A stretch of 64,000 nucleotides of DNA, from NCBI RefSeq assembly GCF_001864935.2, contig NZ_CP126267.1:2666001-2730000 (forward strand). The letters run 5' to 3'. The notes beneath the pieces were generated by a model. That model was not told the origin of the DNA. It searched no databases and was given only the letters and a program-made list of their open reading frames with translations. Source of the stretch: Curtobacterium sp. MCBA15_012. Its GTDB lineage: Bacteria; Actinomycetota; Actinomycetes; Actinomycetales; Microbacteriaceae. This document shows positions 22,635-42,741 of the stretch, piece by piece; the first letter of the stretch is position 1; every line of letters begins with the position of its first letter. Position numbers and translations under genes: made by a program.

Positions 22635-22639
22635 GGGGG

Positions 22640-22972
22640 TCAGCTCCCTCGGTAGGTGGAGTAGGCGAACGGGCTGAGGAGCAGCGGGACGTGCAGGTGC
22701 CCGTCCGCCGGGTCCTCGCGGACGGTGACGACGACGTCGACGCGCGGGTGGAACGCCGCCGTGCCGAGGGCCGACCAGTAGGCGCCGGTGGCGAACGACA
22801 GCGTCCACTCCCCCGGCGCCAGGCGGTCCGGCCCGAGGTCGGCGACCCGGCCGTCGGCGTCGGTGGTGCCCGCCGCGACGACGACGTGCCCGGCGTCGCG
22901 GAGGGTCACGGCGATGCCCGCGGCGGGACGGCCGTGCGTGGTGTCGAGCACGTGGGTGCTGAGGTGGCTCAC
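22640..22972 (-). CDS. uraH: 5-hydroxyisourate hydrolase (transthyretin-related)
   Basis: 110 aa. GTG start overlaps the preceding uraD stop by 4 bp. Signature SHLSTHVLDTTHGRPAAG at the N-terminus provides the first active-site His, and the C-terminus ends AYSTYRGS, the family tetrapeptide YRGS. It hydrolyses 5-hydroxyisourate to OHCU, the second step after uricase. It is 5 bp from uricase, so the three steps are co-expressed. Confidence 0.96.
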   Translation of the reverse strand: MSHLSTHVLDTTHGRPAAGIAVTLRDAGHVVVAAGTTDADGRVADLGPDRLAPGEWTLSFATGAYWSALGTAAFHPRVDVVVTVREDPADGHLHVPLLLSPFAYSTYRGS

Positions 22973-23463
22973 GCGACGGTCCTCCCGAGTCGGAGCATGG
23001 CGATGTCCCGGAGGGCGTCGGCGACCTCCGCGCGTTCGGTGACGTCGTCGTTCCCGAGCCGCCGGTCGAGCTCGGCGAGGACCTCGGGCGCCGTCCGGCC
23101 GGCGGCACGGACGAGGAACACCCGGCCGAAGCGTTCCTCGTACGCCGCGTTGCCGGTCCGGAGCGCCGCGGTCGTGGCGTCGTCCCGGTCCGCCGAGGCA
23201 GCCTGCTCGGTGCGGGCGGCCTCGGCGGCGGCGTCCGTCCCGGTCGGGCGCTCGCCGATGCGGGGGTGGTCGGCCAGGGCCGCGGCGACCTCGTCGTCGG
23301 TCCAGGTGCGGGCGGCGGCGTCGGCGGCGTCGGCGAGCGCCGACACGGCGCCGTACGGTCGGCCGGCGACGACGGCACCGACCCAGCGCGGGACCGGCGC
23401 CCACGCCGCGACGACCGCACGTGCGGCCGCGTCGTCGAGGGCGTCGAACTCGGTGATCTCCAT
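22969..23463 (-). CDS. uraD: OHCU decarboxylase
   Basis: 164 aa from ATG 23463. Motifs WTDDEVAAALADHPRIGERP (catalytic His in HPRIG) and GNAAYEERFGRVFLVRAAGRTAPEVLAELDRRLGND are diagnostic. It converts OHCU to S-allantoin. It is first in the minus-strand operon. There is no ribosome site; a GAAACA element lies upstream and the -10-like hexamer is 7 nt from the ATG, so the message may be leaderless. Confidence 0.96.
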   Translation of the reverse strand: MEITEFDALDDAAARAVVAAWAPVPRWVGAVVAGRPYGAVSALADAADAAARTWTDDEVAAALADHPRIGERPTGTDAAAEAARTEQAASADRDDATTAALRTGNAAYEERFGRVFLVRAAGRTAPEVLAELDRRLGNDDVTERAEVADALRDIAMLRLGRTVA

Positions 23464-23470
23464 GTCCCGA

Positions 23471-23491
23471 AGCGTCGCACCGCCGTGTTTC
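23471..23491 (-). promoter_or_regulatory. GAAACA-N9-GACGCT element upstream of uraD operon
   Basis: On the minus strand GAAACA (23491-23486) is followed after 9 nt by GACGCT and after 7 more by the uraD ATG. It is the weakest member of the five-copy family because the hexamer lacks the TA start. It is the mirror image of the xdh copy 73 bp away. Confidence 0.4.
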
Positions 23492-23550
23492 GGGGAGGTC
23501 TCCGGCAGGTCACCACTCGTCGCCCGGCCCGGTCGCCGTTCGTCGCGGGC

Positions 23551-23584
23551 CCGTCACACCGCTGAAACACCCGTTCCGTACGGT
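23551..23584 (+). promoter_or_regulatory. GAAACA-N9-TACGGT element upstream of xdh operon
   Basis: CCGTCACACCGC then T, GAAACA (23564-23569), 9 nt, TACGGT (23579-23584). The 20 bases ending in GAAACAC match the complement of 29903-29922 at 18 of 20 positions. I read TACGGT as the -10 and the upstream part as an activator or repressor site. Confidence 0.5.
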
Positions 23585-23587
23585 GAC

Positions 23588-23619
23588 GACACACCGCGTG
23601 GCGGACACACCGCGCGGCG
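23588..23619. repeat. 16-bp tandem repeat in the xdh leader
   Basis: GACACACCGCGTGGCG and GACACACCGCGCGGCG are adjacent (23588-23603, 23604-23619), differing at one base. They begin a few bases after the presumed transcription start of the xdh operon, so they would lie in the 5' untranslated region. Confidence 0.75.
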
Positions 23620-23658
23620 GACCCACCCCACGACACGACCGGCACCGAGGAGGCGACC

Positions 23659-23841
23659 GTGCGAGCGAACACCACCACCGCCGTGCCCACGACCGCCTGG
23701 TCCCGCGGGATGATCGCGCACGGACGACGGCCGGGACCCCGCTCCCGCCCCTCGTCGACCCCTCGCGATCGGACCACCCCTTGGACCTCGTCTCCGTCCG
23801 CGCCGTGCGGACCCCCACGCACCGCTCCGACCTCCGACTGA
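23659..23841 (+). CDS. Possible leader ORF overlapping the xdh FAD subunit start
   Basis: A 60-codon frame beginning at GTG 23659 with a good GAGGAGG site 7 nt upstream. It runs out of frame through the start of the FAD-subunit gene and ends at 23841. Its product ([21 protein letters not shown], then Arg/Pro/Ser-rich) resembles nothing I know. It may be a translated leader coupling to the weak TTG of the next gene, a remnant, or chance. The strong ribosome site is the only real support. Confidence 0.3.
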
Positions 23842-24632
23842 CCGCCGGCGACCGCCCGCTCGCCGGTGGCACCTGGCTCTTCTCCGAGGAGCAACCCGGG
23901 CTGACCGGCCTGGTGGACCTCACCGCCCTCGGGTGGCCCGACCTCGAACGGTCCGGGCACACCCTGACGATCGCCGCGACCTGCACGATCGCGTCCCTGC
24001 TCCGCGCCGAGCCGGACCCGGCCTGGACCGCGTGGCCGCTCGTCGACCGGTGCGCGAACGCCCTGCTCGCGTCGTTCAAGGTCTGGAACGCCGCGACCGT
24101 CGGGGGCAACGTTGCGGTCGCCCTGCCCGCCGGTGCGATCACGGCGCTGCTCGCCACCCTGGACGCCGTCGCCGTGGTGTGGACGGACGACGGCGGGGAG
24201 CGACGCACCCCCGTGGCCGACCTGGTCACGGGGGTGCGCACCGTCGCGCTCGCCCCGCAGGAGGTGATCCGCGCGTTCGAGGTGCCGGTCGCGGCCCTCG
24301 CCGCCCGCACCGGGTACCGACGGGTGGCGCTCAGCCCGCACGGGCGCTCCGGGGCGCTCGTCACGGCGCGGTGGACGGCGGACGGGTTCGTCCTCGTCGT
24401 GACCGCGGCGACCCCACGGCCGCTCGTGCTCCGCTGGGACCACGTGCCGAGCAGCGCCGCGGTCGACGCCGCGGTCGGTGGCCACGACGACTGGTACGAC
24501 GACCCGCACGGTTCGCCGGACTGGCGCCGCGCCGTCGCCACCCGTGCCGCACAGGAGCTCCGGGACGAGGCGGCGGCGGACACCCGGGCCTCCGCTCCCG
24601 GCGGCACCGAGGGGGTGGCGTCGTGCAGCTGA
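23781..24632 (+). CDS. Xanthine dehydrogenase FAD-binding subunit
   Basis: 283 aa if started at TTG 23781 ([18 protein letters not shown]), which is where family similarity begins; no ribosome site is seen, and the open frame extends to 23583. FAD-binding motifs are [12 protein letters not shown] and [22 protein letters not shown]. The C-terminal CO-dehydrogenase flavoprotein domain follows. The subunit passes electrons from the iron-sulfur clusters to NAD+. It overlaps the next gene by 10 bp. The order FAD subunit, then fused FeS-Mo subunit, is found in several actinobacteria. Confidence 0.88.
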
Positions 24633-27442
24633 CGGTCGACGGGCACACGCTCGACGTGGCCCCGCAGCCCGGGCAGGTCCTCCGCACGCTCCTGCGCGAA
24701 CACGGTGTCACCGCGGTGAAGAAGGGCTGCGACGCGGGTGACTGCGGCGCCTGCACGGTGCTCCTCGACGGCGTCCCCGTGCACGCCTGCATCACCCCCG
24801 CGCACCGGCTCGCGGACGCCACGGTGACGACGGCGGCGGGCCTCGGCACGGCGGAGCACCCGCACCCCGTGCAGCGCGCCTTCGCCGAGGCCCCCGGGTT
24901 CCAGTGCGGCTTCTGCACGGCCGGGTACGTCGTCACGGCCGCGGCGCTCGACGACGACCAGCTCGCCGACCGGCACCGGGCGCTCAAGGGCAACATCTGC
25001 CGCTGCACGGGGTACCGCGCGATCGAGGACGCCCTCGACGGGGTCCGGAACACCGCGTGCGCCAGCGCCGGGGACGCCGTCGGGACGTCGGTCGCGGCCC
25101 CCGCGGCGTGGCGCATCGTGACGGGTGCCGAGGAGTACACGCTCGACGTCCGACGCACCGAGGCGCTCCTGCACCTCGCGGTCCTCGGCAGCCCGCACCC
25201 GCACGCCCGCATCACCGCGATCGACACGAGCGCCGCCGAGGCCCTGCCCGGCGTGCACGCCGTGCTCACCCACCGGGACGACCCGGGCGTGCTGTTCTCC
25301 ACCGGGCGGCACGAGTCCCGGCTCGACGACCCCGACGACACCCGGGTGTTCGACACGGTGCTGCGGTTCCGCGGGCAGCGGGTCGCGGCCGTCGTCGCCG
25401 AGAGCGTCCGGACCGCCGAGCAGGCGTGCGCCCTGCTGCGCGTCGCGTACGAGGTCCTGCCGAGCGTGCACGACGTCGATGCCGCCCGGCGCCCCGGGGC
25501 ACCGCTGCTGCACGCCGACAAGACCACCGCCGAGCACCGCATCGCCGAGCCGGACCGGAACGTCGTGGCCGCCCTGCACGGCGGGACCGGGGACCTCGAG
25601 GCCGCCCTCGCCGCGTCCGCGGCGACGGTCGACGGCACGTGGTCGACGGGTCGCGTCTCGCACGCCGCGCTCGAGACACACGCGACCCGCGGGTCGCTGG
25701 ACCGGGACGGGAGGCTCGTGCTGCGGACCGCCACGCAGGTCCCGTTCCTGGTGCGGGACGAGATCGCGCACGTCTTCGGTCTCGACCCGGCACGGGTGCG
25801 CGTGGTCGCGAAGCGGGTGGGCGGCGGGTTCGGCGGCAAGCAGGAGATGCTCACCGAGGACCTCGTCACGCTCGCGGTGCTCCGCACCGGCCGCACCGTG
25901 CAGTACGAGTTCAGCCGCCGGGACGAGTTCACGATCGCACCGACCCGGCACCCGATGCGCGTGCGCGTCCGGCTCGGCGCGGACCGCTCCGGCCGCCTGA
26001 CCGCGATGCACGTGGACCAGGTGATGGACACCGGCGCGTACGGCAACCACGGCGTCGGCGTCATGTTCCACTCGGTGAGCGAGTCCGTCGCCGTGTACCG
26101 CTGCCCGGTGAAGCGGGTCGACGCGGAGTCGGTCTACACGAACAACCTGCCGTCGGGGGCGTTCCGCGGGTACGGCCTCGGCCAGGTGGTGTTCGCGATC
26201 GAGTCGGCGATGGACGAGCTGGCCCGCGAGCTCGACCTCGACCCGTTCGAGCTCCGGCGGCGCAACGTGGTCGTGCCCGGCGACCCGCTCGTCGTCACCG
26301 ACCCGGACGAGGAGGACGACCTGCGGTGGGAGGGCAGCTACGGCCTCGACCAGTGCCTCGACCTGGTCGAGGACGCCCTCCGCGCACCCCTGCCCGAGGT
26401 CCCCGCGATGGACGGGCCGCCGCTCGACCGCGCGGCAGCGGACGGCACGGCACCGGCCGGCACCGGCGACTGGGCGTTCGGCACCGGGGTCGCCCTCGCC
26501 GCGATCGCCACGATGCCGCCGCGGGGCCACCACGCACACGCCTCGGTCGAGGCGACCGCGGACGGCCGCTACCGGATCGGTGTCGGCACGGCCGAGTTCG
26601 GCAACGGCACGACGACCGTGCACACGCAGCTCGTCGCCACCGCCCTCGGCACCACCCCGGACCGGGTCGACGTGCACCAGTCCGACACCGACGCCGCCCG
26701 GTACGACACCGGTGCGTTCGGGTCGGCCGGCGTCGTCGTCGCGGGCAAGGCGCTGTACGCGGCCGCGCTGGACCTGCACGAGCAGATGACGGCACGCGCG
26801 CTGACGATCGTGGCAGCCCGGACGTCCCGCGCCGCGGTCGGCCCGCTCGGCCCGGCGGTCGCCGTGCTCCCGGACGGCGTGCGGGTGGGCGACCAGGTGG
26901 TCGGGCACGCCGAGCTCCTGGCCGAGGGGCCCCTCGTCGCGCACGGCAGCCACGACGGCACCCCGCGGTCCCTGGCCTTCACGGTGCACGGCGCCCGGGT
27001 CGCGGTGCACCGCCCCACCGGCGAGGTCCGCGTCCTGCACAGTGCGCAGGCGGTCGACGCCGGGACGGTCCTCAACCCGGAACAGCTCCGCGGGCAGGTC
27101 GAGGGCGGCGCGGCGCAGGCGATCGGCTCGACCCTGTACGAGGAGGTCGTGCTCGACGACGAGGGCCGGGTCACGACCGACGCGTTCCGGTCGTACCGCG
27201 TCCCGAAGATCTCCGACGTGCCCCGCACCGAGGTGCTCTTCGCGGCGACGCACGACCCGCTCGGGCCGCTCGGCGCGAAGTCGATGAGCGAGGCCCCCTA
27301 CAACCCGGTCGCCCCGGCGGTCGCGAACGCCGTCCGTGACGCCCTCGGCGTCCGGCCGTACCGCCTGCCGATGACGCGGGACCGGGTCTGGCGTCTCGTG
27401 CAGCAGGCGTCGCCGGACGCGACCGACGTCGGAGGTGCGTGA
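24623..27442 (+). CDS. Xanthine dehydrogenase, fused [2Fe-2S] and molybdenum subunit
   Basis: 939 aa from GTG 24623 (GAGGGGG site upstream). Residues 1-80 form a plant-type ferredoxin domain with C-x4-C-x2-C-x11-C ([13 protein letters not shown]...HAC). Residues about 80-155 form the second cluster domain (QCGFC ... NICRCTGY). From about 165 onward is the molybdopterin domain: [23 protein letters not shown] and, near the end, GAKSMSEAP with the catalytic Glu. It oxidises hypoxanthine/xanthine to urate. A linker near residues 590-620 is Ala/Gly/Pro-rich. It overlaps xdhC at its stop. Confidence 0.93.
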
Positions 27443-28452
27443 TGTTCGAACTGGCACCGCGCCTCCTGGCCGTCCTCGACCACGGCGACCCCGTCGTCGT
27501 CGCGACGGCCGTCGCGATGTCCGGCAGCGCGCCCAGCGGGGTCGGGACGTCGATGGCGGTCCTGCCGGGCGGCGGGGTCGTCGGGACGATCTCCGGCGGG
27601 TGCGTCGAGGGGTCCCTGTTCGTCACGGCCGGGCAGGTGCTCGACGACGGCGTGCCGGTGCTCGAGCGGTTCGGCTTCGACGCCGACCCGGACGCGGAGG
27701 CCCCGGACGCCGCCGGGCCCGACGCGGTCTGGGCGCCGGCGCTCCGCTGCGGCGGCCGGGTCGAGGTCCTGGTCCGCCGCGTGGACCCCGGCGACCCCGT
27801 GGTCGACGCCCTGCGGCGGGCGGCCTCGGGCGAGCCGACGTCGCTCGCGCTCTCCCTCGAACCCGACTCGCTGGGTGCGGTCGTCACCGCGCCGGACGGG
27901 TGCCGGGGCCGGGTCTTCGTCGAGCGGGCCGACGCGCGTCCCCGGTGCGTCGTGGTCGGCGCGGTCGAGACCGCCGTCGCCGTGACGAACGCGGCGGCGG
28001 TGCTCGGCTACGCGGTGACCGTCGTCGACCCACGGTCGGTGTTCCTGACCGACGAGCGCTTCCCGGCGGCGGACGAGCGGATCGTGGGGTGGCCGACGCG
28101 CGTGCTCGCGGGACTGCCGATTGACGGCACGACCGCCGTCGTGGTGCTCTCGCACGACGACCGGTTCGACGCCGCGGTGGTCGACCTGGCGCTCCGCCGC
28201 GGCGCCGGCTACGTCGGGGCGATGGGCTCGCGGGCGACGCACGAGCGGCGGCTCGCGGAGCTGGTCGCGCTCGGGACGCCGGACCTCGAGCGGCTGCGGT
28301 CGCCGATCGGGCTCGACATCGGGGCGGAGACCCCGGCCGAGACGGCGCTCGCGGTCATGGCGGAGGTGGTCGCCGTGCGCCGGGGTGCCCCGGGCGGTGC
28401 GCTCGCGGGCGGGGCGGGGCCGATCCACCGGCACGCGGTCGTCGCGGGCTGA
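27442..28452 (+). CDS. xdhC: XdhC/CoxI-family molybdenum cofactor insertion protein
   Basis: 336 aa, ATG 27442 with GGAGGT 5 nt upstream (GTG at 27439 is too close to the site). XdhC N-terminal domain: VVVATAVAMSGSAPSGVGTSMAVLPGGGVVGTISGGCVEG. The C-terminal Rossmann domain includes PRCVVVGAVETAVAVTNAAAVLGYAVTVVDPR and RGAGYVGAMGSRATHERRLAEL. XdhC binds and sulfurates the cofactor before insertion into XDH. Last gene of the xdh operon. Confidence 0.94.
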   Translation: MFELAPRLLAVLDHGDPVVVATAVAMSGSAPSGVGTSMAVLPGGGVVGTISGGCVEGSLFVTAGQVLDDGVPVLERFGFDADPDAEAPDAAGPDAVWAPALRCGGRVEVLVRRVDPGDPVVDALRRAASGEPTSLALSLEPDSLGAVVTAPDGCRGRVFVERADARPRCVVVGAVETAVAVTNAAAVLGYAVTVVDPRSVFLTDERFPAADERIVGWPTRVLAGLPIDGTTAVVVLSHDDRFDAAVVDLALRRGAGYVGAMGSRATHERRLAELVALGTPDLERLRSPIGLDIGAETPAETALAVMAEVVAVRRGAPGGALAGGAGPIHRHAVVAG

Positions 28453-28482
28453 CGGGGCGGAGCCGGGCGCACCCGGTCGTCC

Positions 28483-28521
28483 CGGGCGTCCCCGGTCGTC
28501 CCGTCCGACCAGGGACGCCCG
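28483..28521. terminator. Hairpin between convergent xdhC and amidohydrolase genes
   Basis: Arms CGGGCGTCCC (28483-28492) and GGGACGCCCG (28512-28521) with a 19-nt loop and no T-tract. It is the only inverted repeat I see in the 136-bp convergent gap. Confidence 0.45.
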
Positions 28522-28588
28522 TTCCCACCTCCCACAGCGCCCGTCCCGGGGAGGAACCCGCGACCGACCCACTCCGCGGGGAGCGCCC

Positions 28589-29881
28589 TCACACGGGCGT
28601 GCGGGCCAGCCGTTCCGACAGCCGCGCCGCGATCTCGCGCTCGTCACCGGTCACGAGCCGGTGGTCGCGGACGACCACCCGCCCACCGACGACGACGTGC
28701 CGCGGGCGCCGCCCCGGGGACGCCCAGAGCAGCCCCGCGACCGGGTCGGCGACCCCCGCGTCCGCCACCCCGGAGACGTCCCACACGCACAGGTCCCCCG
28801 CCGTCCCGTCGCCGAGGTGCCCGAGCTCCGGCCGCCCGAGCCCCGCCGCGGACCCCTCGGTGGTCATGCCGAGCACCTGCCGCGCGGGGAGCTGCGGCCC
28901 GACGAGCGCCGACACCTGCATCGCCAGCCGTGCGTCCGCGAGCAGGTGCCCCGCGTCGTTGCTGCCGCCGCCGCTCGTCCCGAGGCCGACCGGGACCCCG
29001 GCCGCCGCGAGCGCCGCGACCGGGGCGATCCCCCACCCCATGGGCACGTCGCACCCCGGTGCGTGCGTCGCGGACACCCCGGCCGCGGCCAGCCGTGCGA
29101 CCTCGTCGGCGGTCACGTCGCACAGGTGCGCGATCGTGACGTCGGGGGCGAGCCACCCCCACTCCTCGAGCAGGTCGATCGGCCGCCGCCCGTACCGCTC
29201 GAGCGCGATCGCGGTGTCGACCTGCTCGTTCGCCTGGGTCCGCCGTCGGAGTCCGTGCCGGGCGGCGACCTCGCCGAGCGCCCGGAAGGTCGCCTCACCG
29301 TCGGAGTGCACACCGGCCGGGCCCACGGCCACCTGCAGGCCCCCGTCCGGGTCGACCCCGCCGACCGCCTGCTCGTGCAGCAACCGCGCGGCGATCGCGT
29401 CCGCCGACGCAGCAGGACGCTCCGGGTCGTCGCGCGCCGAGCCCCGCACGAACACGAGACGCCCGCCGAGTCCGCGGACGGCGTCGACCGTCGCCGCGGC
29501 GAGCGCCACGGTGTCGTCGGTGGTCGCGTCCGCGGGCCAGTTCAGGTGGTGGTCGGCGATCGTCGTGACGCCGGACAGGAGGCCCTCCGCGGCCCCGGCG
29601 GACGCGGCCAGTCCGTACAGCTCGGGATCGTGCCCCACCCGGCCGTACGCGCCGGCCATCGTCGGGAGCCACTCCGCCATCGGCACGGCACGCGTCCCGG
29701 GCAGGGTGCGGAAGGCGGTCTGCAGCAGGTGGTGGTGGGCGTTCACGAGGCCGGCGGTGACGACGCAGCCCGAGGCGTCGAGGGTCGTCGCGAGGTCGCT
29801 GCCGTCGTCGAGGACCACGTCGCCCTCCCGTTCGGTGCGGGGGTCGACGAGGACGCGGCGGGCACCGGTGACGGTCAGCAT
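28589..29881 (-). CDS. Amidohydrolase, 8-oxoguanine-deaminase-like, with altered metal site
   Basis: 430 aa. Overall similar to the 8-oxoguanine/guanine/S-adenosylhomocysteine deaminase branch: VTAGLVNAHHHLLQTAFRTLPG (first metal His pair), GLLSGVTTIADHH, LLEEWGWLAPDVTIAHLCDV (His kept). Where the family has HTHLAE this protein has RRTQANE, and where it has VDGSASND it has TSGGGSND, so the strand-5 His and the strand-8 catalytic Asp both appear to be replaced. The other amidohydrolase at 32774 keeps both. It may be a divergent enzyme with a rebuilt active site or a non-hydrolytic homologue. It is monocistronic, leaderless, with a GAAACA element shared with the xdh promoter. Confidence 0.8.
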   Translation of the reverse strand: MLTVTGARRVLVDPRTEREGDVVLDDGSDLATTLDASGCVVTAGLVNAHHHLLQTAFRTLPGTRAVPMAEWLPTMAGAYGRVGHDPELYGLAASAGAAEGLLSGVTTIADHHLNWPADATTDDTVALAAATVDAVRGLGGRLVFVRGSARDDPERPAASADAIAARLLHEQAVGGVDPDGGLQVAVGPAGVHSDGEATFRALGEVAARHGLRRRTQANEQVDTAIALERYGRRPIDLLEEWGWLAPDVTIAHLCDVTADEVARLAAAGVSATHAPGCDVPMGWGIAPVAALAAAGVPVGLGTSGGGSNDAGHLLADARLAMQVSALVGPQLPARQVLGMTTEGSAAGLGRPELGHLGDGTAGDLCVWDVSGVADAGVADPVAGLLWASPGRRPRHVVVGGRVVVRDHRLVTGDEREIAARLSERLARTPV

Positions 29882-29887
29882 GCGTCG

Positions 29888-29922
29888 GTTCTAGCAGCCG
29901 ACTGTTTCCGCGGCGTGACGGA
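29888..29922 (-). promoter_or_regulatory. GAAACA-N9-TAGAAC element upstream of amidohydrolase
   Basis: On the minus strand: CCGTCACGCCGC then G, GAAACA (29908-29903), 9 nt, TAGAAC (29893-29888), 6 nt, ATG 29881. The left 20 bases match the xdh promoter element at 18 of 20 positions. The spacing from TAGAAC to ATG is that of a leaderless gene. Confidence 0.55.
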
Positions 29923-29974
29923 GGAACCGGCCGTGCCGGAGGAACCGGCCGTGCCGGAGGAACCGGCCGTGCCG
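29921..29974. repeat. Perfect 18-bp tandem repeat, three copies
   Basis: GAGGAACCGGCCGTGCCG three times without a mismatch, in the 218-bp divergent gap between the amidohydrolase and the WXG/DUF1023 gene. It would encode six-residue repeats in any frame but no gene covers it. Confidence 0.85.
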
Positions 29975-30099
29975 GTCTCGGGTGCGGGAGCACCCGGCGG
30001 ATCGCACTCCGCGCTCCATCGGTGGTCCTGGATGTGGAATACCGGCCGATCGGCTCGCCCGTGTGTACGCTCGGCCTGGGGAACGATCCGGGGGGGGAC

Positions 30100-31959
30100 A
30101 TGAGCGACATCGAGTTCGACGACGGCGCCGCGAAGCGGTTGATCGCAGCGGCCGACGCCGGCGACGATCGCCTCCGCGGTCAGGGCGGGACGAGGGCAGC
30201 CGCGGCGGAGGACGCGCTCTGGAACTTCGAGGGCGCCTACTCCCAGCGCTTCCTCGAAGCCGTGCAGGTCGAGGCGGCGGACCGCGCCCGCCTCGCACGA
30301 CAGCTCGCGTCGTTGTCCGACCAGGTCAGCGCCGTCGCGGCCGCGGCCTTCCGCGAGCGCGAACGTCTGGCGGACCTCGCGTCGTGGAACCAGCGTGAGC
30401 AGCACCGTCAGGACGCTGCGGCCGCCGATCCGCTCCGCGCGCTCGGCATCCCGCCGAGCACGTTCCCGGACCCGCGCCCGTCGACGACACCGGTGGTGCC
30501 GCCGGAGGTCTCGGTCTCCTTCACGGCGCGTCAGCGCGAGCGCACCGGGACGGGGACGAGCGGCGGACGCAGCTCGGCCGTCCCGGAGAACCTCCGACGG
30601 TTCGCACAGACCACCAGGGCCTCCGACCGAGCGGCGTCGACCGCCGTCGGCGACGTCCGTCGAGCGTGGCACGCCTTCGTCGGGTCGTGCGGCTGGGCCC
30701 GGATCGGCAGCACGACACTCCTGTCCGGTGCGGAGGCGTACCTGCGCGAGAACGACGGGGACGCCGCGTGGACGGAGCGCGTGGCCGCGGCCTTCGAGCG
30801 CGCAGGGAGCGCCGGCTCGCTGTCGAACGCCACGCTCGACGTCGCCGTGTCGGACGACGTCCCGGCTGCCGTGCAGCGCCTCACGGCCGACGGGCTGACC
30901 CCGACCGAGGTGAACGCACTCTGGAACGCCTTCGGCTTCTCCCCGGAGCGCCGCTCCGACCTGGAGTCGGTGCCGGTCACCGCCCTCGCCGCACTCGGGA
31001 ACCTCGAGGGCGTGCCGTACTGGGCCCGGGACACCGCCAACCGCGTCGTGCTGCGCGAGCGCCTGGCGGCGGCCCGCACCGGCGACGATCCGGTCGAACT
31101 GGCCGCACTGCAGAACATCGACAAGGCACTCCGCGGGGCGGTGGACGACTGGCCGCGGTCACTCACGACGCTGTCCGCCGACGTGCCCCCGCTCGCGGCG
31201 GTCTCGATCGGTGACCTCGACACCGCTGCGAACGTCACGTGGACGGTACCCGGGATGGGGACGACCTCGGCGGACACGGTCGGTTGGGCGAACGCCTCCC
31301 AGAACCTCGCCGAGCAGCAGGCCCGGACCACGGGTCGGACCGACAACGCCGTGCTCGCGTGGATCGGGTACGCACCACCGCCGGTCCCGGACGCCGAGAA
31401 CCGTGACCTCGGGGTGCTCGGCAACCGCTCGGCCACCGAGGGCGCACCGCACCTCGTCGACAGCATCCACGGTCTCGACGCGGTCCGGGCGGGGGACGTG
31501 CCGCACACCAACGTCGTCGCCCACTCGTACGGGTCGACGACCGCCGCGATCGCCCTCGACCGCGAGGACGTGCACGTGGACACCCTGACGACGATCGGCT
31601 CCGCCGGCATCCCGGGGAGCGTGCGTGACGCCGCCGACCTGAGCGCCGACCACGTGTACGCCGGCCAGGCGCGCAAGGCGTACCCGTGGGACGACGACGG
31701 CCCGCGGGGCGACCAGTGGGCCTGGCTCGGTCGGGAAGGCAGCCGCCGGAAGGACCCGACCGACGCGGACTTCGGCGCCACCGTGTTCGAGGTCGACGAC
31801 GGCGGATCGGGCAACCCGGTGCTCGACCACGGCGTCCACACGAAGGACGACCGGGGGTACCTGGACAAGGGCACCGAGTCGCTCAAGAACGTCGCACGGA
31901 CCTCCACCGGACAGGGAGACCGTGTGAGCCGACCCACGGAAGAAGAGGAAGCCTGGTGA
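30100..31959 (+). CDS. WXG/ESX-like N-terminal domain plus DUF1023 alpha/beta hydrolase
   Basis: 619 aa from ATG 30100 preceded by a G7 run. Residues 1-110 are helical and Ala/Arg-rich with WNFEGAYSQRFLEAVQ, like the helical-hairpin modules of type VII-secreted proteins. Residues about 170-340 are of unknown fold. Residues about 370-600 are the alpha/beta-hydrolase of the DUF1023 family: VTWTVPGMGTTSA, the nucleophile elbow VVAHSYGSTTAAIAL, and a late catalytic His in VLDHGVHTKDDRGYLDKG. No signal peptide or membrane segment. Substrate unknown; an ester or amide at the cell surface is plausible. A lipoprotein gene follows 7 bp later. Confidence 0.8.
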   Translation: MSDIEFDDGAAKRLIAAADAGDDRLRGQGGTRAAAAEDALWNFEGAYSQRFLEAVQVEAADRARLARQLASLSDQVSAVAAAAFRERERLADLASWNQREQHRQDAAAADPLRALGIPPSTFPDPRPSTTPVVPPEVSVSFTARQRERTGTGTSGGRSSAVPENLRRFAQTTRASDRAASTAVGDVRRAWHAFVGSCGWARIGSTTLLSGAEAYLRENDGDAAWTERVAAAFERAGSAGSLSNATLDVAVSDDVPAAVQRLTADGLTPTEVNALWNAFGFSPERRSDLESVPVTALAALGNLEGVPYWARDTANRVVLRERLAAARTGDDPVELAALQNIDKALRGAVDDWPRSLTTLSADVPPLAAVSIGDLDTAANVTWTVPGMGTTSADTVGWANASQNLAEQQARTTGRTDNAVLAWIGYAPPPVPDAENRDLGVLGNRSATEGAPHLVDSIHGLDAVRAGDVPHTNVVAHSYGSTTAAIALDREDVHVDTLTTIGSAGIPGSVRDAADLSADHVYAGQARKAYPWDDDGPRGDQWAWLGREGSRRKDPTDADFGATVFEVDDGGSGNPVLDHGVHTKDDRGYLDKGTESLKNVARTSTGQGDRVSRPTEEEEAW

Positions 31960-31966
31960 GTCGATC

Positions 31967-32542
31967 ATGATCCGACCGGTCCCCGTGCGGAATGCCGCCC
32001 GACTGAGTGTCCGACCGCACCACCTCGCCAGGGCGGTGGTCACGGTCCTGACGATGGCCCTGTTGACCGGATGCGCAGGAGGAGAACCCATGGAGCCCGA
32101 CCAGACCCAGCAGCCCACCGTCTCGCCGGACGAGGCGAAGCGATCCGTCGTCGACGTCGTCGACCGGACCGCGAGCCTCGTCGACGGCGACTGGGAGGTC
32201 CTCAGCGGGCCGAGGCTCGGGCTCTGCCCGGGATCGGACGGCTCCGGCGACGCCGACGACCCGGGCGGCGTCACGTGGGTGTACGTGAAGCAACGGCCGG
32301 GGTCCGACGACCCGAAGGAGGACCTCCGCAAGGTCGAGTCCCTCTGGCAGAGCATGGGGATCACGACGAAGCGGTACCGCAGCGGTGGCGACGACCCTGA
32401 CCTCGGGCTGACCGGGCGCGGCGGTCCGGTCAGCAGCATCGACTTCCTCGCGTCCTCCGCGGGCGGCTACAGCATCGACGGCGAGTCGCAGTGCGCCGAC
32501 GGCGACTACGGCGACCTGGCCACGGGGAGCCCGACCCCCTGA
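31967..32542 (+). CDS. Lipoprotein of unknown function, partner of the DUF1023 protein
   Basis: 191 aa. A long N-terminus (MIRPVPVRNAARLSVRPHHL) leads to AVVTVLTMALLTGC, so C36 is the probable lipidated residue. The mature part has a Thr/Gln/Pro linker, then an alpha/beta domain (VVDVVDRTASLVDGDWEVLSGPRLGLCPG ... TWVYVKQRPGSDDPKEDLRKVESLWQSMGI). Two further cysteines (GLCPG, SQCADG) may pair. Co-transcribed with the upstream hydrolase; could be an immunity-like or accessory lipoprotein, which is inference only. Confidence 0.75.
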   Translation: MIRPVPVRNAARLSVRPHHLARAVVTVLTMALLTGCAGGEPMEPDQTQQPTVSPDEAKRSVVDVVDRTASLVDGDWEVLSGPRLGLCPGSDGSGDADDPGGVTWVYVKQRPGSDDPKEDLRKVESLWQSMGITTKRYRSGGDDPDLGLTGRGGPVSSIDFLASSAGGYSIDGESQCADGDYGDLATGSPTP

Positions 32543-32544
32543 CC

Positions 32545-32692
32545 GGCACCGCCGGGCGCGCGGGCAGGGACGCCGGCGCACGGCACCGCCGGGCGCGCGA
32601 GCGGAGACGCCGGCGCACGGCACCGCCGGGCGCGCGAGCGGAGACGCCGGCGCCCGGCACCGCCCGGCACCGCCCGGCGCAGGGACGGCTCC
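32545..32692. repeat. 37-bp tandem repeat, three copies plus partial
   Basis: Units start at 32545, 32582, 32619 and (partial) 32656 with GGCACCGCC(G/C)GG, an exact 37-bp period; the second and third copies are nearly identical. The repeat follows the lipoprotein stop directly and fills the gap before the next promoter. The internal CGCCGGCG palindromes could fold and act as a terminator. Confidence 0.85.
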
Positions 32693-32734
32693 GCCGTTCC
32701 GACCACCCCACCGACACCCTCCGGGAAACCCCGT

Positions 32735-32767
32735 GGTGACGCCCGCGAAACACGCGGACCCTACGGT
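32735..32767 (+). promoter_or_regulatory. GAAACA-N9-TACGGT element, leaderless promoter of amidohydrolase
   Basis: GGTGACGCC, then GAAACA (32747-32752), 9 nt, TACGGT (32762-32767), 6 nt, ATG 32774. A second GAAAC lies 22 bp upstream (32725). The hexamer is identical to that of the xdh copy. Confidence 0.55.
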
Positions 32768-32773
32768 CCAGGC

Positions 32774-34171
32774 ATGACGACGACCCTGATCCGTGCCGGC
32801 TGGGTGCTCACCGCAGCGCCCGACGACTCCCCCACCCCCGCTGCGATCCGCGACGGCGCCGTCCTGCTCGACGGGGACCGCATCGCCGCCGTGGGCACCT
32901 TCGCCGAGCTGTCCGCCGCCCACCCCGACGCACCGGTCCGCGGGGGCGCGTACGACGTCGTCACCCCGGGCTTTGTCAACACGCACGGGCACTTCAGCGA
33001 GGGCCTCGTCACGGGCATCGGCTCGCAGTACACGCTGTGGGAGTGGTTGACGGCGCTGATCAGCCGCGTCAACCCGGTGATGACCCGCGAGAAGGCGTAC
33101 GCCGGCACGGTGCTGCAGGGCATCCAGCTGCTCCGGAGCGGTGTCACGACGGCGAACGACATGTTCTGCGCGGACCCGGTGCCCGACGAGCCCGCGACCC
33201 CCGGTGTCGTGCAGGCGCTCGAGGACCTCGGCCTGCGCGGCGTCGTGTCGTTCGGTTCCGGGGACGTCGACCGGGACTTCGGCGCGACCCCGATCCTCGA
33301 GGAGTTCGAGGCGCTGCGCGAGGCGGCGGACGCCAGCCGCTACAGCACCTTCCGGGTCGGGGTGTCGTCGATCGGCCGCTACACCGACGACACCTGGCAG
33401 GAGCACGTCGACTACGCGGTCGCGGGCGGCCACGGCGTGCACGTGCACTTCCACGAGGTGCGCGAGGAGGTCACGGCGGCCCGGCAGCGCACCGGCCGGA
33501 CGGCGATCGGGCACGCCGAGGCGACGGGCATGTTCCAGGTGCCCGTGATCGCGGCGCACAGCGTCTGGGTGGACCGCGAGGACCGGGAGCGCTACGCCAC
33601 GAACGGCGTCGGTGTCGCCCACAACCCGGTCGCGAACGGCATCCTGGCGAGCGGCATCGCTCCGGTCGCGGAGCTCCGTGCCCTCGGCGTCCCGGTCGGC
33701 ATCGGGGTCGACGGCCCGGCCTCGAACGACTCGCAGGACTTCCTGCAGGCGATGAAGACCGCCGCGCTGCTCGCTCGGGTCCGGGACCTGCAGGCGACGG
33801 CGATGAGCGCCCGCGAGGCGTTCGAGATGGGCACCATCGGCGGCGCCCGTGCGCTCCGCATGGACACCGAGATCGGGTCGCTCGAGCCCGGCAAGCGCGC
33901 GGACGTCGTCGTCTTCGACGGCGACTCCCCGGCCCTGGCGAACGTGCACGACCCCTACCAGGCGGTCGTCTTCGTCGCCGGCAGCCGCGAGGTCCGCGAC
34001 GTCTGGGTCGACGGCGAGCTGAGCCTGGCCGACCACGACGTCACGAAGGTCGACGTGCGCGAGGCCGTGGCGCGTGCCCGACCGCTCGCCCGGCAGCTGG
34101 TCGCCGAGGCGGGGCTCGAGCGCCTGTCGGCGCTCACCGGCGGCCCGCTCGACGACACCGAGCGTCCGTAG
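32774..34171 (+). CDS. Amidohydrolase-superfamily deaminase/hydrolase
   Basis: 465 aa. All metal ligands are visible: FVNTHGHFSEG (His pair), VHVHFHEVREE (strand-5 His), IAAHSVWVDRED (His) and GIGVDGPASNDSQDF (Asp). The C-terminal AFEMGTIGGARALRMDTEIGSLEPGKRADVVVFD closes the composite domain. It belongs to the ATZ/TRZ/8-oxoguanine/guanine deaminase group acting on aminated or halogenated N-heterocycles. It probably deaminates a purine- or triazine-like ring. Monocistronic, leaderless, ends at hairpin copy 4. Confidence 0.88.
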   Translation: MTTTLIRAGWVLTAAPDDSPTPAAIRDGAVLLDGDRIAAVGTFAELSAAHPDAPVRGGAYDVVTPGFVNTHGHFSEGLVTGIGSQYTLWEWLTALISRVNPVMTREKAYAGTVLQGIQLLRSGVTTANDMFCADPVPDEPATPGVVQALEDLGLRGVVSFGSGDVDRDFGATPILEEFEALREAADASRYSTFRVGVSSIGRYTDDTWQEHVDYAVAGGHGVHVHFHEVREEVTAARQRTGRTAIGHAEATGMFQVPVIAAHSVWVDREDRERYATNGVGVAHNPVANGILASGIAPVAELRALGVPVGIGVDGPASNDSQDFLQAMKTAALLARVRDLQATAMSAREAFEMGTIGGARALRMDTEIGSLEPGKRADVVVFDGDSPALANVHDPYQAVVFVAGSREVRDVWVDGELSLADHDVTKVDVREAVARARPLARQLVAEAGLERLSALTGGPLDDTERP

Positions 34172-34200
34172 CGGCGGCGACCGCCCGACGGTCGCACCAC

Positions 34201-34253
34201 GGGACGGACGGGAGGCGCGGCACCCGTCGTGCGCCGCGCCTCCCGTTCGTCCC
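34201..34253. terminator. Dispersed hairpin terminator, copy 4
   Basis: Arms of 20 bases with one G-T-type mismatch (34201-34220 / 34234-34253) around a 13-nt loop, containing the shared GACGGGAGGCGCGG sequence. It lies between two convergent genes. Confidence 0.78.
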
Positions 34254-34272
34254 GACCCGGCTCAGCGGCCGG

Positions 34273-35226
34273 TCACAGCTCCAGGACGAGGCGCGGGCAC
34301 CCGCGCCGGGCACGGGAGACGCAGACCATCATGGTGCGGTCGTCGGCCTGCTCCTCCGGGCTGAGCACGGTGTCGCGGTGCTCGACCGCGCCCTCGAGCA
34401 CCGGGGTCTCGCAGGTGCCGCACGTGCCCTCGCGGCACGAGGACAGGACGAACGCGCCGGCCTCCTCGGCGACCTCGAGCAGGGTGCGGTCGGCCGGGAC
34501 CGTCACGGTGACGCCGGTCACGGTCAGCTCGACCTCGAACGGCTCGCCCGGGGCGTCGACGGCGTCCGCCGGTTCGAAGCGCTCGACCCGGACGCTGCCG
34601 GCCGGCCAGTGCGCGGCCGCGGCCTCGACGGCGTCCATCAGTGCCCGCGGGCCGCAGCAGTACACGACGGCGTCCCGCGGCTCGGCGAGGAGCGCGGGGA
34701 CGTCGAGCCGGACGCCCTCGTCCGCCGCGGCCACGGTGACCCGGTCGGGGTGCGCGGCGACGAGGTCGTCGACGAAGGCCATCCGGTCGCGGGTGCGGCC
34801 CGCGTAGTGGAGCTCCCACGGCGTCCCGGAACGCTCGGCGGCGTCGATCATCGCGGCGAGCGGCGTGATGCCGATGCCCCCGGCGACGAACACGGCGGGG
34901 CGGCCGGGGTCGAACCCGAAGTGGTTGCGCGGCCCACCGACGAGCACCTCGGTCCCGACCGCGAGCGCGTCGTGCACGGCCGCCGATCCGCCGCGGCCGT
35001 CGGGTTCCCGGAGGACCGCGATCCGCCAGTGCCCCGCGCGGGTGGCCCCGACGAGCGAGTACTGCCGCTCGGTGCCCGGCGTGACCTCGAGGTCGAGGTG
35101 CGCCCCGGGCTCCCAGTCGGGCAGCGGGGTGTCCCCCGTGGCCGCGAGGTCGAGCGCGACGACGTCGGTCGCGACCTCGCGGCGTGCGGCGACGCGCAGC
35201 CGCAGGCGCTCGGGGACGGCGGTCAC
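34273..35226 (-). CDS. Phthalate/vanillate dioxygenase-type reductase (FMN/FAD plus [2Fe-2S])
   Basis: 317 aa, GTG start overlapping the regulator gene by 4 bp. Flavin domain marks: RQYSLVGA; NAD domain VFVAGGIGITPLAAMIDAAE and VVYCCGPRALMDAV. The C-terminal plant-type ferredoxin has C-x4-C-x2-C (SSCREGTCGTCETP) and the last Cys in MMVCVSRA. This layout fits the reductase of Rieske-oxygenase systems (VanB/PdR type) passing electrons from NAD(P)H. No oxygenase is encoded nearby, so its partner is elsewhere or it serves another acceptor in the block. Confidence 0.9.
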   Translation of the reverse strand: MTAVPERLRLRVAARREVATDVVALDLAATGDTPLPDWEPGAHLDLEVTPGTERQYSLVGATRAGHWRIAVLREPDGRGGSAAVHDALAVGTEVLVGGPRNHFGFDPGRPAVFVAGGIGITPLAAMIDAAERSGTPWELHYAGRTRDRMAFVDDLVAAHPDRVTVAAADEGVRLDVPALLAEPRDAVVYCCGPRALMDAVEAAAAHWPAGSVRVERFEPADAVDAPGEPFEVELTVTGVTVTVPADRTLLEVAEEAGAFVLSSCREGTCGTCETPVLEGAVEHRDTVLSPEEQADDRTMMVCVSRARRGCPRLVLEL

Positions 35227-35906
35227 GCGACACCCCCGACCCGCGGGGTCTCCTTGACCACGAGCATGTGGAAGCGTCCGCCGTCGGCGCTGCACCAGCG
35301 GTGTGCGGTGCCGCCCCGGTGGTAGACGGAGTCACCTGGCCCGAGGCGGATCGGCTCCTGGCCGCGCAGGTCGAGCAGCACGTGGCCGGAGAGCACGGTG
35401 AGGAACTCGTCCTCGCCGTGCTCGAAGTACTCGCCGAGGTCGGTGTGCTCGCCGGTCCACTCGAGCGGCTCGAAGGCGTGCGGTCCGGCGTGCACGAGGA
35501 GCCGCGCCTCGCCGTCGGAGGAGGGTCCGCGAGCACCCTCCCCGGCCCGCAGCACCTCGGGCGCACCGCCGTCGTGGCCGCCGTGCTCCGGGGCACCGGC
35601 GGCGAGCAGTGCGACCTGGGTCGTGCCGAGCGCCGCCGCGATCTTCTCGAGCGAGACCATGCTCGCCCGGGAGTGCCCGCGTTCGACCTGGCTGAGGAAG
35701 GGGTGCGACAAGCCGGTGGCGGCGGCGACCTGCACGAGGGTCAGGCCCGCGGCCCGGCGCCGGGCGCGGATCTGCTCGCCGATCCGACGGGTCTGCGCGT
35801 CGACGACCCGGTCGGCGTCGGGACGGGAGTCGGTGCCCGCCCCGTCGGCGGTGGTGTCGGTGCTCGCCCCGTCGGCGGTCATGCTGGTGCGGGTCCCCGG
35901 GCTCAC
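35223..35906 (-). CDS. XRE-type regulator with C-terminal cupin domain
   Basis: 227 aa from GTG 35906 with AGGAG 7 nt upstream. N-terminal 50 aa are Asp/Gly/Thr-rich. The HTH spans about 60-115: IGEQIRARRRAAGLTLVQVAAATGLSHPFLSQVERGHSRASMVSLEKIAAALG. The C-terminal cupin (HGEDEFLTVLSGHVLLDLRGQEPIRLGPGDSVYHRGGTAHRW) probably binds the inducer. It is divergent from the catabolic operon at 36050 with a 19-bp palindrome between them, so it is the likely local regulator of the whole block. Confidence 0.88.
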   Translation of the reverse strand: MSPGTRTSMTADGASTDTTADGAGTDSRPDADRVVDAQTRRIGEQIRARRRAAGLTLVQVAAATGLSHPFLSQVERGHSRASMVSLEKIAAALGTTQVALLAAGAPEHGGHDGGAPEVLRAGEGARGPSSDGEARLLVHAGPHAFEPLEWTGEHTDLGEYFEHGEDEFLTVLSGHVLLDLRGQEPIRLGPGDSVYHRGGTAHRWCSADGGRFHMLVVKETPRVGGVA

Positions 35907-35967
35907 GCGTGCTCCTGTCGTTCCGGTTCGTTCCGGTCCGGGACGGCTGTCACACACGGCAACCGCC

Positions 35968-36001
35968 GCGAAACGTGAGGGAAACAGAGCCGCCCTAGCA
36001 T
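35968..36001 (+). promoter_or_regulatory. GAAACA-N9-TAGCAT element of catabolic operon
   Basis: GAAACA (35981-35986), 9 nt, TAGCAT (35996-36001). A second GAAAC lies 11 bp upstream (35970), one helical turn away. TAGCAT as -10 would place the transcription start at the palindrome that begins at 36007. Confidence 0.5.
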
Positions 36002-36006
36002 CGGAG

Positions 36007-36025
36007 ATGTTGATGCGATCAACAT
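36007..36025. promoter_or_regulatory. 19-bp palindromic operator ATGTTGAT-GCG-ATCAACAT
   Basis: Perfect 8-bp arms (36007-36014 / 36018-36025) around GCG, AT-rich in GC-rich surroundings, at the presumed +1 of the operon starting at 36050 and within the divergent region of the XRE-cupin regulator. Very probably the operator of that regulator. Confidence 0.75.
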
Positions 36026-36049: not shown

Positions 36050-37390
36050 ATGGGCTCGACAGCACCACGACCGGTCGCCCTGCTGCGGGACGCCCTGCTG
36101 GCCGACGGACACCGCGTCGACGTCGCGATCGCAGGCGACACGGTCGTGGCCGTCGCCCCGGCGGGCAGCCTCCACGCCCTCGCCGAGGACACGCTCGACC
36201 TCGGCGGACGGCTGCTCCTCACCGCTCCCGCCGAGCCGCACGCGCACCTCGACAAGGCCCTCAGTGCCGACGTGATCCGGCCGCCGCTCGGGGACCTCGG
36301 TGCCGCGATCGCCTCGTGGTCGGCGCACGCCACGACCATGACCGTGGACGAGATCGCCGACCGGGCGCGCACCGCCGCCCTGGCCCTGCTCGCCGCCGGG
36401 ACCACCGCCGTCCGCAGCCACGTCGACGTCCTGAGCGGTCGCCGCACGGCCGACGACGCCCCCGCGTCCACCGAGTCCGCCGTGCGCGGTGCACGGGCGC
36501 TCGTCCGGGTCCGCGACGAGCTCGCCGGGCTCGTGGACATCGAGCTCGTCGCCCTGGCCGGACCGCTCGCGCCCGACCACCACGTCGAGGCCGTCCTGGC
36601 CTGCGGCGTCGACCTGGTCGGCGGCGCGCCGCACCTGGCGGCGGACCCGCTCGCCGACGTGGACCGGCTGCTCGCGCTGGCCGACCGGCACGGCGTCGGG
36701 GTCGACCTGCACACCGACGAGAACCTCGACGGCCCGCTCACGCTCGACCACTTCGCCCGCGCGGTCAGCGCACGCCGGGGTGCCCACGCCGGCACGGGCG
36801 AGCGCGACGGCAGGACCTGGACCGCCGGCCACTGCGTGCGGCTCGGCACCCTGGGCCCCGAGCGTCTGGCCGAGGTCGTCACCGACGTCGCCGCCGCCGA
36901 CCTCGGGATCGTGACGCTGCCGATCACGAACCTCTACCTGCAGGGCTGGCAGCACCCGGTGTCCACGCCCCGCGGACTGACCGCGATCCAGGCCCTCACT
37001 GCGGCCGGGGTCCGCGTGGCCGCCGGCGCCGACAACGTCCGCGACCCGTTCAACCCGGTGGGCCGCAGCGACGCGCTCGAGACGGCGTCCCTCCTCGTGA
37101 CCGCGGGCCACGTGACGCCGGACCAGGCGTACGCGATGGTGAGCGACACCGCCCGGAGCGTGATGGGCCTCCCGGCCGCCGGTCCCGTCCCCGGACGGCG
37201 AGCCGACCTGCTGGCGGTCGCCGCGACCAGCGTCACCGACGCCGTCGCGAACGCGCCGGCGGACCGCATCGTCCTGTCCCGTGGGCGACTCGTCGCCCGC
37301 ACCGAGGTGCACACCACGATCGCCGCTCCCGCGTCCGCGGCCGCACCCGCGTCCGCGGCCGCACCGACACCGGCAGCCGTGCCGGCCTGA
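36050..37390 (+). CDS. Cytosine-deaminase-like amidohydrolase
   Basis: 446 aa with GGGAGG 5 nt before ATG. Motifs: LTAPAEPHAHLDKALS (His pair of the HxH motif), VDLHTDENLDGP (strand-5 His with catalytic Glu), TAGHCVRLG (His), and AGADNVRDPFNPVG (Asp). These match the CodA branch of amidohydrolases that attack cyclic amidines such as cytosine, isocytosine or creatinine-like rings. The C-terminus has an Ala/Pro-rich tail with a duplicated ASAAAP. It is first in the operon with an importer and so probably performs the first or an early intracellular step. Confidence 0.87.
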   Translation: MGSTAPRPVALLRDALLADGHRVDVAIAGDTVVAVAPAGSLHALAEDTLDLGGRLLLTAPAEPHAHLDKALSADVIRPPLGDLGAAIASWSAHATTMTVDEIADRARTAALALLAAGTTAVRSHVDVLSGRRTADDAPASTESAVRGARALVRVRDELAGLVDIELVALAGPLAPDHHVEAVLACGVDLVGGAPHLAADPLADVDRLLALADRHGVGVDLHTDENLDGPLTLDHFARAVSARRGAHAGTGERDGRTWTAGHCVRLGTLGPERLAEVVTDVAAADLGIVTLPITNLYLQGWQHPVSTPRGLTAIQALTAAGVRVAAGADNVRDPFNPVGRSDALETASLLVTAGHVTPDQAYAMVSDTARSVMGLPAAGPVPGRRADLLAVAATSVTDAVANAPADRIVLSRGRLVARTEVHTTIAAPASAAAPASAAAPTPAAVPA

Positions 37391-37459
37391 CCGCGCACGG
37401 CACCGCGCCGCGCACCCACCCGACCCGACCCCGCCCCCGCGCCCCACCGAGAACCCGAG

Positions 37460-39102: not shown

Positions 39103-39201
39103 CCGACCCACGGTCCCCCGCTCCGCCCGCGGAGCACCTGCCCCACCCCTGCCCCACCCGACCCCCAGCACCACGAGACCCGCACCACGAACGGAGCCTC
39201 C

Positions 39202-40386: not shown

Positions 40387-40428
40387 CGCGGGTCGGCCGA
40401 GCCGACCGCACGGAGCCGACCGACTGCC

Positions 40429-40470
40429 GGACGGGAGGCGCGGAGCACGCCCGCCCCGCGCCTCCCGTCC
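40429..40470 (+). terminator. Dispersed hairpin terminator, copy 5
   Basis: Perfect 15-bp arms (40429-40443 / 40456-40470). It lies within the catabolic block between the importer and the FAD oxidase, so the second half of the block may have its own promoter or depend on read-through. Confidence 0.75.
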
Positions 40471-40505
40471 GCCGTTCCCGCACCACCCACCCCACAGGAG
40501 TGAGC

Positions 40506-42676: not shown

Positions 42677-42698
42677 GCGCGGCCGTCGCGAGCGCGCC

Positions 42699-42730
42699 GC
42701 ACCACCGCACCACCGCACCACCGCACCACG
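42699..42730. repeat. 8-bp tandem repeat (GCACCACC)4
   Basis: Three exact copies of GCACCACC and a fourth ending in G, between the creatininase and formamidase genes, just upstream of the latter's ribosome site (CGGAG). Confidence 0.8.
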
Positions 42731-42741
42731 ATCGGAGCACC

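Follow-up and report, generated by a model that had tools for sequence, protein, structure and literature searches.

Introduction

The closest described counterpart of the promoters discussed here is the GlnR regulon of actinobacteria (Streptomyces, Mycobacterium, Amycolatopsis). The GlnR consensus has been given as gTnAc-n6-GaAAc for S. coelicolor (PMC10704036) and, from 53 sites found by chromatin immunoprecipitation with sequencing in M. smegmatis, as Gn2AC-n6-GnAACA (PMC3662644). We have analyzed a stretch of 64,000 nucleotides from Curtobacterium sp. MCBA15_012 (contig NZ_CP126267.1, positions 2,666,001 to 2,730,000; "the window" in the following), in which five nitrogen-catabolic transcription units are preceded by GAAACA and, nine nucleotides further on, a TA-type hexamer. 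Judging by their sequence, these five elements are very probably GlnR boxes at GlnR-activated promoters. They have in common with the known regulon the half-sites, the 11-bp phase, the occurrence in several copies, the glnA, amtB and permease targets and a GlnR ortholog in the genome. They differ in the Curtobacterium genes that carry the box (xdh, uraD-uricase and amidohydrolase units) and in a uniform 10-nt gap between box and -10 hexamer.

A first reading of this sequence (the original prediction) had assigned the element to an unknown regulator of purine and ureide catabolism. GlnR is the very probable alternative, since the same element is found at glnA and amtB. Moreover, GlnR control has been published for the purine genes of M. 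smegmatis, and therefore the regulator is not unknown and the wiring is not new in kind. Growth of M. smegmatis on uric acid and guanine depends on GlnR (PMC4222082). When nitrogen-starved wild type was compared with a glnR mutant, msmeg_1292 (FAD subunit, molybdopterin dehydrogenase) was up 3.5-fold, msmeg_1293 (xanthine-uracil permease) 14.7-fold, msmeg_1295 (transthyretin) 7.4-fold and msmeg_1296 (uricase) 8.7-fold (PMC4222082), and a GlnR peak has been mapped between msmeg_1292 and msmeg_1293 (PMC3662644). Survival of the glnR mutant on uric acid or allantoin is poor (PMC6277429), and purine breakdown genes are up under nitrogen limitation (PMC4617892). The likeness to Curtobacterium lies in these GlnR-dependent genes for an xdh-type FAD subunit, a xanthine-uracil permease, transthyretin and uricase. 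The differences lie in gene order and genus, and in the deaminase-type amidohydrolases and the operon at 36050 described below, which do not appear in the sections of the M. smegmatis papers that were compared. A GlnR study of Curtobacterium or the Microbacteriaceae was not found in the open-licence literature.

Promoters with a shared two-part box

The original prediction took the hexamer GAAACA for the full site. Its GAAAC is the second half (b-site) of a longer element, with an a-site GTnAC exactly 6 nt upstream at the xanthine dehydrogenase (xdh) unit (23553) and at the two amidohydrolase genes that start at 32774 (a-site at 32736) and 29881. The full pattern is GTnAC-n6-GAAAC in 11-bp phase, followed 10 nt after GAAAC by the TA hexamer, which is the -10. 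The match to a-site and b-site is perfect at three of the five window sites and has one mismatch at the other two, and the sites agree with both published consensuses, including the A after GAAAC. Second GAAAC copies, also seen in the first reading, are present 22 bp (32725) and 11 bp (35970) upstream and represent further half-sites in the same phase. The elements, with the boxes as predicted GlnR sites, are as follows.

23553..23568, forward strand: box of the xdh unit, GTCAC-n6-GAAAC
23579..23584, forward strand: -10 of xdh, TACGGT, 10 nt after GAAAC
23487..23513, reverse strand: box of the uraD unit, GTGAC-n6-GAGAC-n6-GAAAC
23471..23476, reverse strand: -10 of the uraD unit, GACGCT, 7 nt before the ATG at 23463
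29904..29919, reverse strand: box of the amidohydrolase gene 28589-29881, GTCAC-n6-GAAAC
29888..29893, reverse strand: -10 of 29881, TAGAAC, 6 nt before the ATG at 29881
32725..32751, forward strand: box of the amidohydrolase gene 32774, GAAAC-n6-GTGAC-n6-GAAAC
32762..32767, forward strand: -10 of 32774, TACGGT, 6 nt before the ATG at 32774
35959..35985, forward strand: box of the 36050 operon, GCAAC-n6-GAAAC-n6-GAAAC
35996..36001, forward strand: -10 of the 36050 operon, TAGCAT

All five sites lie where they had been reported. GAAACA-N9-TANNNT with at most one mismatch has exactly five matches in the window, which are perfect at 23564, 32747 and 35981 (forward strand) and have one mismatch at 29888-29908 and 23471-23491 (reverse strand), compared with 0.19 expected (100 shuffles, largest count 2). 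Because the pattern was written after the sites had been seen, this count proves little alone; the independent tests are conservation, spacing and genome scans. The words GAAAC or GTTTC occur ten times in the window, seven of them at the five promoters. The copies at xdh and 29881, said to match at 18 of 20 positions, actually match at 17/19 (17/20). Half-sites in helical phase that are common to several nitrogen-catabolic units bear out the earlier view that GAAACA belongs to a regulator site. As a -35 element it was rejected, since the gap from GAAAC to the hexamer is 10 nt in the conserved promoters.

A GlnR ortholog and further boxes in the genome

The genome clearly encodes a predicted GlnR ortholog (G000:C1:3219239-3219874). 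It is 63% identical to an S. coelicolor GlnR query, with an E-value of 1.4e-83, the next of 12 matches being at 7.7e-28. The protein matches Pfam GlnR_1st with 147 bits, its receiver domain matches structure 4o1h, deposited as "Transcription regulator GlnR", and its best solved relatives along its length are 8hih and 8hig, both deposited as response regulators, which we take to be GlnR structures. The glnR ortholog lies about 0.5 Mb outside the window in the same genome, which explains why the first reading had found no obvious regulator there.

MtrA is encoded in the genome as well (L018; NF040689 with 306.9 bits, cut-off 300). It, above all other regulators of the OmpR type that might read the same repeats, could be the main occupant of the sites, with or without GlnR. 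We regard this as improbable, because the sites match the GlnR consensus known from the literature and are present at glnA and amtB as well; joint occupancy by both proteins may occur.

The genome-wide survey consisted of pattern searches of one 3.58-Mb contig, with reversed patterns as controls. GTNACN6GAAAC has 16 matches (reversed control 1), of which seven precede evident nitrogen genes: glnA, amtB, an NCS1 permease gene (matching allantoin permease models below their cut-offs), a pbuX-type xanthine permease gene, xdh, 29881 and 32774. An eighth (L001, G000:C1:286298-286313) precedes a sodium:dicarboxylate symporter gene; msmeg_4501, which bears the same name, is 22-fold GlnR-dependent in M. 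smegmatis (PMC4222082). The boxes without a nitrogen-gene assignment are L002 (major facilitator superfamily, MFS), L003, L004, which looks like a Shine-Dalgarno coincidence, L005, L006, L007/L106 (gcvT), L008 and L015. The glnA promoter reads GTAAC-n6-GAAAC-n6-GTCAT-n6-GAAAC-n10-TAGCCT, and the amtB promoter ends in GAAAC-n10-CAGACT, with a degenerate -10.

Searched without the a-site, GAAAC-N10-TANNNT has ten matches (control 1). Three are in the window, and the others precede glnA, the xanthine permease gene, genes for an ATP-binding cassette (ABC) amino-acid-type binding protein, gcvT, an MFS pump and a glycosidase, with one site lacking an assigned gene. The original prediction would be in difficulty if the motif were as frequent upstream of unrelated genes. 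It mostly passed this check, given the three sites in the window and those at glnA, the xanthine permease gene and the binding-protein gene; the MFS pump and the glycosidase stand on the other side.

A dedicated purine/ureide regulator, as first proposed, would fit with the presence of the element at five catabolic units within 12.5 kb, and with the absence of a gene for a GlnR-type regulator nearby. Yet glnA has the same element with the same gap, amtB has it in front of a degenerate -10, and in one genome of the family (G098) a box (1111373-1111404) lies directly before glnR itself (GlnR domain from 1111441). Such a regulator is thus very hard to credit, and the sharing of the element with glnA and amtB led us to reject a purine-specific one. 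What survives of the proposed regulon is the common regulator; rather than purine-specific, the regulon would be the global one for nitrogen limitation, with glnA, amtB and permeases.

The gcvT gene (glycine cleavage) has a perfect box upstream, at gap 10 from TATGCT (G000:C1:985201-985232, L106), which may be a real target or due to chance.

Spacing between box and -10 in relatives

The spacing was scanned with the gap left free between 4 and 18 nt and the reversed pattern as control. In 80 named xdh loci, all 34 matches (29 loci) were at gap 10, with none at the other 14 gaps and none in the control. The 40 genomes of the genus gave 20 matches, every one at gap 10 (control 1). These come from just two promoters, the xdh type in 14 cases and one before a UraD-HIUase fusion in six. 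In 150 genomes of the family, scanned with GTTAC as a-site, 22 of 41 matches fell at gap 10 and five at gap 11; the remaining 14 were scattered over other gaps, and the control gave 14 matches. The spacing matches are therefore related by descent in part, yet among them are sites at xdh, UraD-HIUase, 36050-type genes, class-V aminotransferases, PucR-like genes (Rhodococcus) and glutamine synthetase. With the gap fixed at 10, the full box had 119 matches in 73 of the family genomes (controls 5). Thirty-one downstream frames, picked by length and codon composition at 29 of the 30 loci L135-L164 (the window genome's L153 was left out) and at two of the 20 loci L115-L134, were scanned in these relatives; eight encode glutamine synthetase, two UraD-HIUase and one GlnR itself.

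In Rhodococcus and Rhodococcoides (L052, L055, L057, L059, L060, L062, L064, L065, L068), GAAAC-n6-GAAAC-n10-TAnnnT lies beside xdh and upstream of PucR-like genes, which were called by eye and confirmed by Pfam in L059 and L064. This suggests that GlnR feeds into PucR in these genera. PucR of Bacillus is a pathway-specific regulator of purine catabolism. Regulators of this type share with the system described here the control of purine catabolism, and differ from it in being pathway-specific and, in the Rhodococcus relatives, in standing behind the box.

Conservation at orthologous promoters

Thirteen of the 80 xdh loci were examined at the orthologous promoters, eight from Curtobacterium (L025-L032) and five others (L033-L037). 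The column-conservation sets omit L025, a near-identical copy of the window sequence, and the averages for 32774 do not include L032. The expected conservation was found within Curtobacterium, where box and spacing are kept, and was patchier outside the genus. At xdh, box, gap and -10 are kept in all eight Curtobacterium loci, near-identical L025 included; outside the genus, L034, L035 and L036 have the box with a poorer hexamer, CAGAGT or TTGACT, at gap 10. The uraD-side promoter of L026-L031 reads GT(G/C)AC-n17-GAAAC-n10-(C/A)ATCnT, followed by ATG 6-7 nt later. The -10 of relatives is CATCCT, CATCGT or AATCCT, and GAAAC is invariant in seven aligned Curtobacterium promoters, the window's included; in L032 the divergent site was not seen. 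The box is present at 4/4 full-length Curtobacterium orthologs found for 29881. In all five Curtobacterium orthologs of 32774 the -10 is preceded, at a distance of 10 nt, by a half-site (GAAAC twice, GGAAC twice, GTGAC in L032). For 36050 the box is kept in 3/3 Curtobacterium orthologs and also in L036 (Frondihabitans) and L037 (a Microbacteriaceae metagenome-assembled genome).

In the five sets, mean column conservation ranges from 0.92 to 1.00 at GAAAC and from 0.83 to 1.00 at the -10 hexamer, compared with 0.51-0.69 in the distal flank. The stretch downstream of the -10 also has well-conserved parts (0.52-0.91), since coding sequence and, at 36050, a palindrome fall within it. These values bear on the question whether A-rich words in a genome of 74% GC could resemble GlnR boxes by chance. 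Three of the ten GAAAC-N10-TANNNT sites in the genome lack the a-site (L105, L108, L112), with L108 and L112 before the MFS pump and glycosidase genes and one without an assigned gene, and loose patterns give many control matches. With strict patterns, however, counts are far above shuffles or reversed controls, and GAAAC and the 10-nt gap stay while the flanks diverge. We take chance to be refuted by the cross-species conservation within the genus and by the controls, and hardly give it any weight.

The divergent promoter is constant in L025-L031 and the gene behind it differs by species. It is UraD in some (a UraD match in L025, L029 and L031) and uricase-like in others (L026-L028 and L030, judged by eye from the first residues). 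Of 12 uricase loci in other genomes of the genus, 11 have such a site, and in nine it lies directly before the uricase domain. UraD and HIUase are also found fused in other genomes of the genus (L133, L120), with a GlnR-type box of their own, gap 10 and ATG 6 nt after the -10.

A palindrome at the 36050 operon

Just after the -10 of the 36050 operon lies a second element.

36007..36025: palindrome ATGTTGATgcgATCAACAT, composed of ATGTTGAT-GCG-ATCAACAT

Its 17-bp core has a single match in the window, compared with 0.01 expected when up to two mismatches are allowed. Nineteen of 40 genomes of the genus, among them the one studied here, each carry one copy, and the control gave no match. The palindrome is also found in Frondihabitans (L036), and in all 20 loci (19 of the genus and L036) it follows GAAAC-n10-TAnnnT at a distance of 6 nt. 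The palindrome is likely, from its sequence and position, to be the operator of a second, pathway-specific regulator, overlapping the transcription start. Among the part of the window's reading frames scanned against Pfam, one regulator-like match was found (a TetR-type C-terminal domain, 16629-17180), and nothing links it to the palindrome.

Genes behind the boxes

The units downstream of the five promoters are the following.

23781..27442, forward strand: xdh unit, FAD-binding subunit (23781-24632), then fused 2Fe-2S/molybdopterin subunit (domains from about 24623)
27439-28452: xdhC-type gene, after the xdh unit
21621..23463, reverse strand: uraD unit, with uraD (22969-23463), a HIUase/transthyretin-like gene (ends 22640) and uricase (domains about 21693-22508)
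28589..29881, reverse strand: amidohydrolase; best NCBIfam match 8-oxoguanine deaminase, below the family cut-off
32774..34171, forward strand: amidohydrolase of deaminase type; all displayed NCBIfam matches below cut-off
36050..45524, forward strand: catabolic run of cytosine-deaminase-like amidohydrolase, ABC ATPase, permease, binding protein, FAD oxidoreductase, creatininase and AtzH/amidase

In the Pfam and NCBIfam scan, the NCBIfam xdh models match the xdh unit below their cut-offs. Curtobacterium sp. UCD-KPL2560 encodes a protein 99% identical to the xdh product, and the seven named relatives ranking next likewise belong to Curtobacterium. Gene order suggests a uraD-HIUase-uricase operon, and the 36050..45524 run probably forms an operon too. 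In this run, the cytosine-deaminase-like amidohydrolase has no Pfam match and NCBIfam matches below cut-off, and the permease and the binding protein were recognized by eye.

The ATG follows the -10 hexamer by 6 nt at 29881 and 32774 and by 7 nt at uraD, and aligned relatives keep 6-7 nt. Leaderless mRNAs are therefore predicted at these three of the five units; leaders are present at the xdh and 36050 units. The xdh leader holds a short reading frame (23659-23841), behind GAGGAGG in the window, that overlaps the start of the FAD-subunit gene. Its peptide AW(N/S)RGMIAHGRR is kept in eight of eight Curtobacterium sequences (window and L026-L032), and a leader peptide or translational coupling is possible.

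Discussion

The sites with their spacing, their conservation, the GlnR ortholog and the same box at glnA and amtB are observations; that GlnR binds at these sites and activates from them we infer from the sequence. Together, they suggest a model for the control of the five units. When nitrogen is short, GlnR, a regulator of the OmpR/PhoB type with an atypical receiver domain, would bind direct repeats of GTnAC-n6-GAAAC in 11-bp phase, sometimes with three or more half-sites. With exactly 10 bp between the end of the last half-site and the -10, GlnR would occupy the usual place of a -35. From there it could recruit RNA polymerase to promoters that have a -10 and no proper -35, in class II-like activation. 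The proximal half-site is at a fixed distance of 10 nt from the -10, as in class II promoters, and this spacing alone suggests that GlnR contacts the polymerase in place of a -35. Xanthine dehydrogenase, uraD-HIUase-uricase, the two deaminase-type amidohydrolases and the amidohydrolase/ABC-transporter operon would thus be switched on together with glnA, amtB and purine permeases elsewhere in the genome. Class II promoters of PhoB (Pho box) likewise have, where a -35 would be expected, direct repeats in 11-bp phase whose end lies about 10 bp upstream of the -10. The Curtobacterium promoters share with them the repeat phase and the distance to the -10, and differ in half-site sequence and signal.

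Several findings weigh against this model. In this species the uraD unit has a poor -10. Only seven, perhaps eight, of the 16 perfect boxes are at evident nitrogen genes, the rest being unassigned, unrelated or due to chance, and an exact TANNNT at gap 10 follows only four of the 16, with none at the NCS1 permease box. Several of the 31 downstream frames in relatives are unrelated to nitrogen by name (subtilase, amylase, NAD synthase). Conservation outside Curtobacterium is patchy in the five loci examined: the xdh box is absent from L033 and L037, the uraD orthologs of L033-L036 show no box with the pattern used, and neither do the two 29881 orthologs (L036, L037). A looser pattern over the 80 loci gave 129 matches against 37 controls, so that weak matches are often due to chance. 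The motif is found in 72 of the 142 family genomes with a GlnR match over cut-off and in one of the eight without, a weak comparison given that only eight of 150 genomes lack such a match. Finally, in a phenotype array the M. smegmatis glnR mutant was more active on xanthine (PMC6277429).

The finding is best read as a known switch acting on further genes, plus a second control element at the 36050 operon. We further propose, as an idea that may equally well hold or fail, a rigid GlnR grammar in Microbacteriaceae (a-b box, exactly 10 nt, -10, often ATG 6-7 nt later and hence a leaderless mRNA), combined at 36050 into a two-input gate in which a second regulator would act jointly with GlnR, on ATGTTGAT-n3-ATCAACAT over the transcription start. 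What looked like an orphan motif becomes a regulon that can be tested and has a named regulator; for this genus and its family, our search of the open-licence literature found no GlnR study. The fixed 10-nt rule would make strong GlnR targets predictable from sequence, and the palindrome, present once per genome, points to a second regulator of the 36050 operon.

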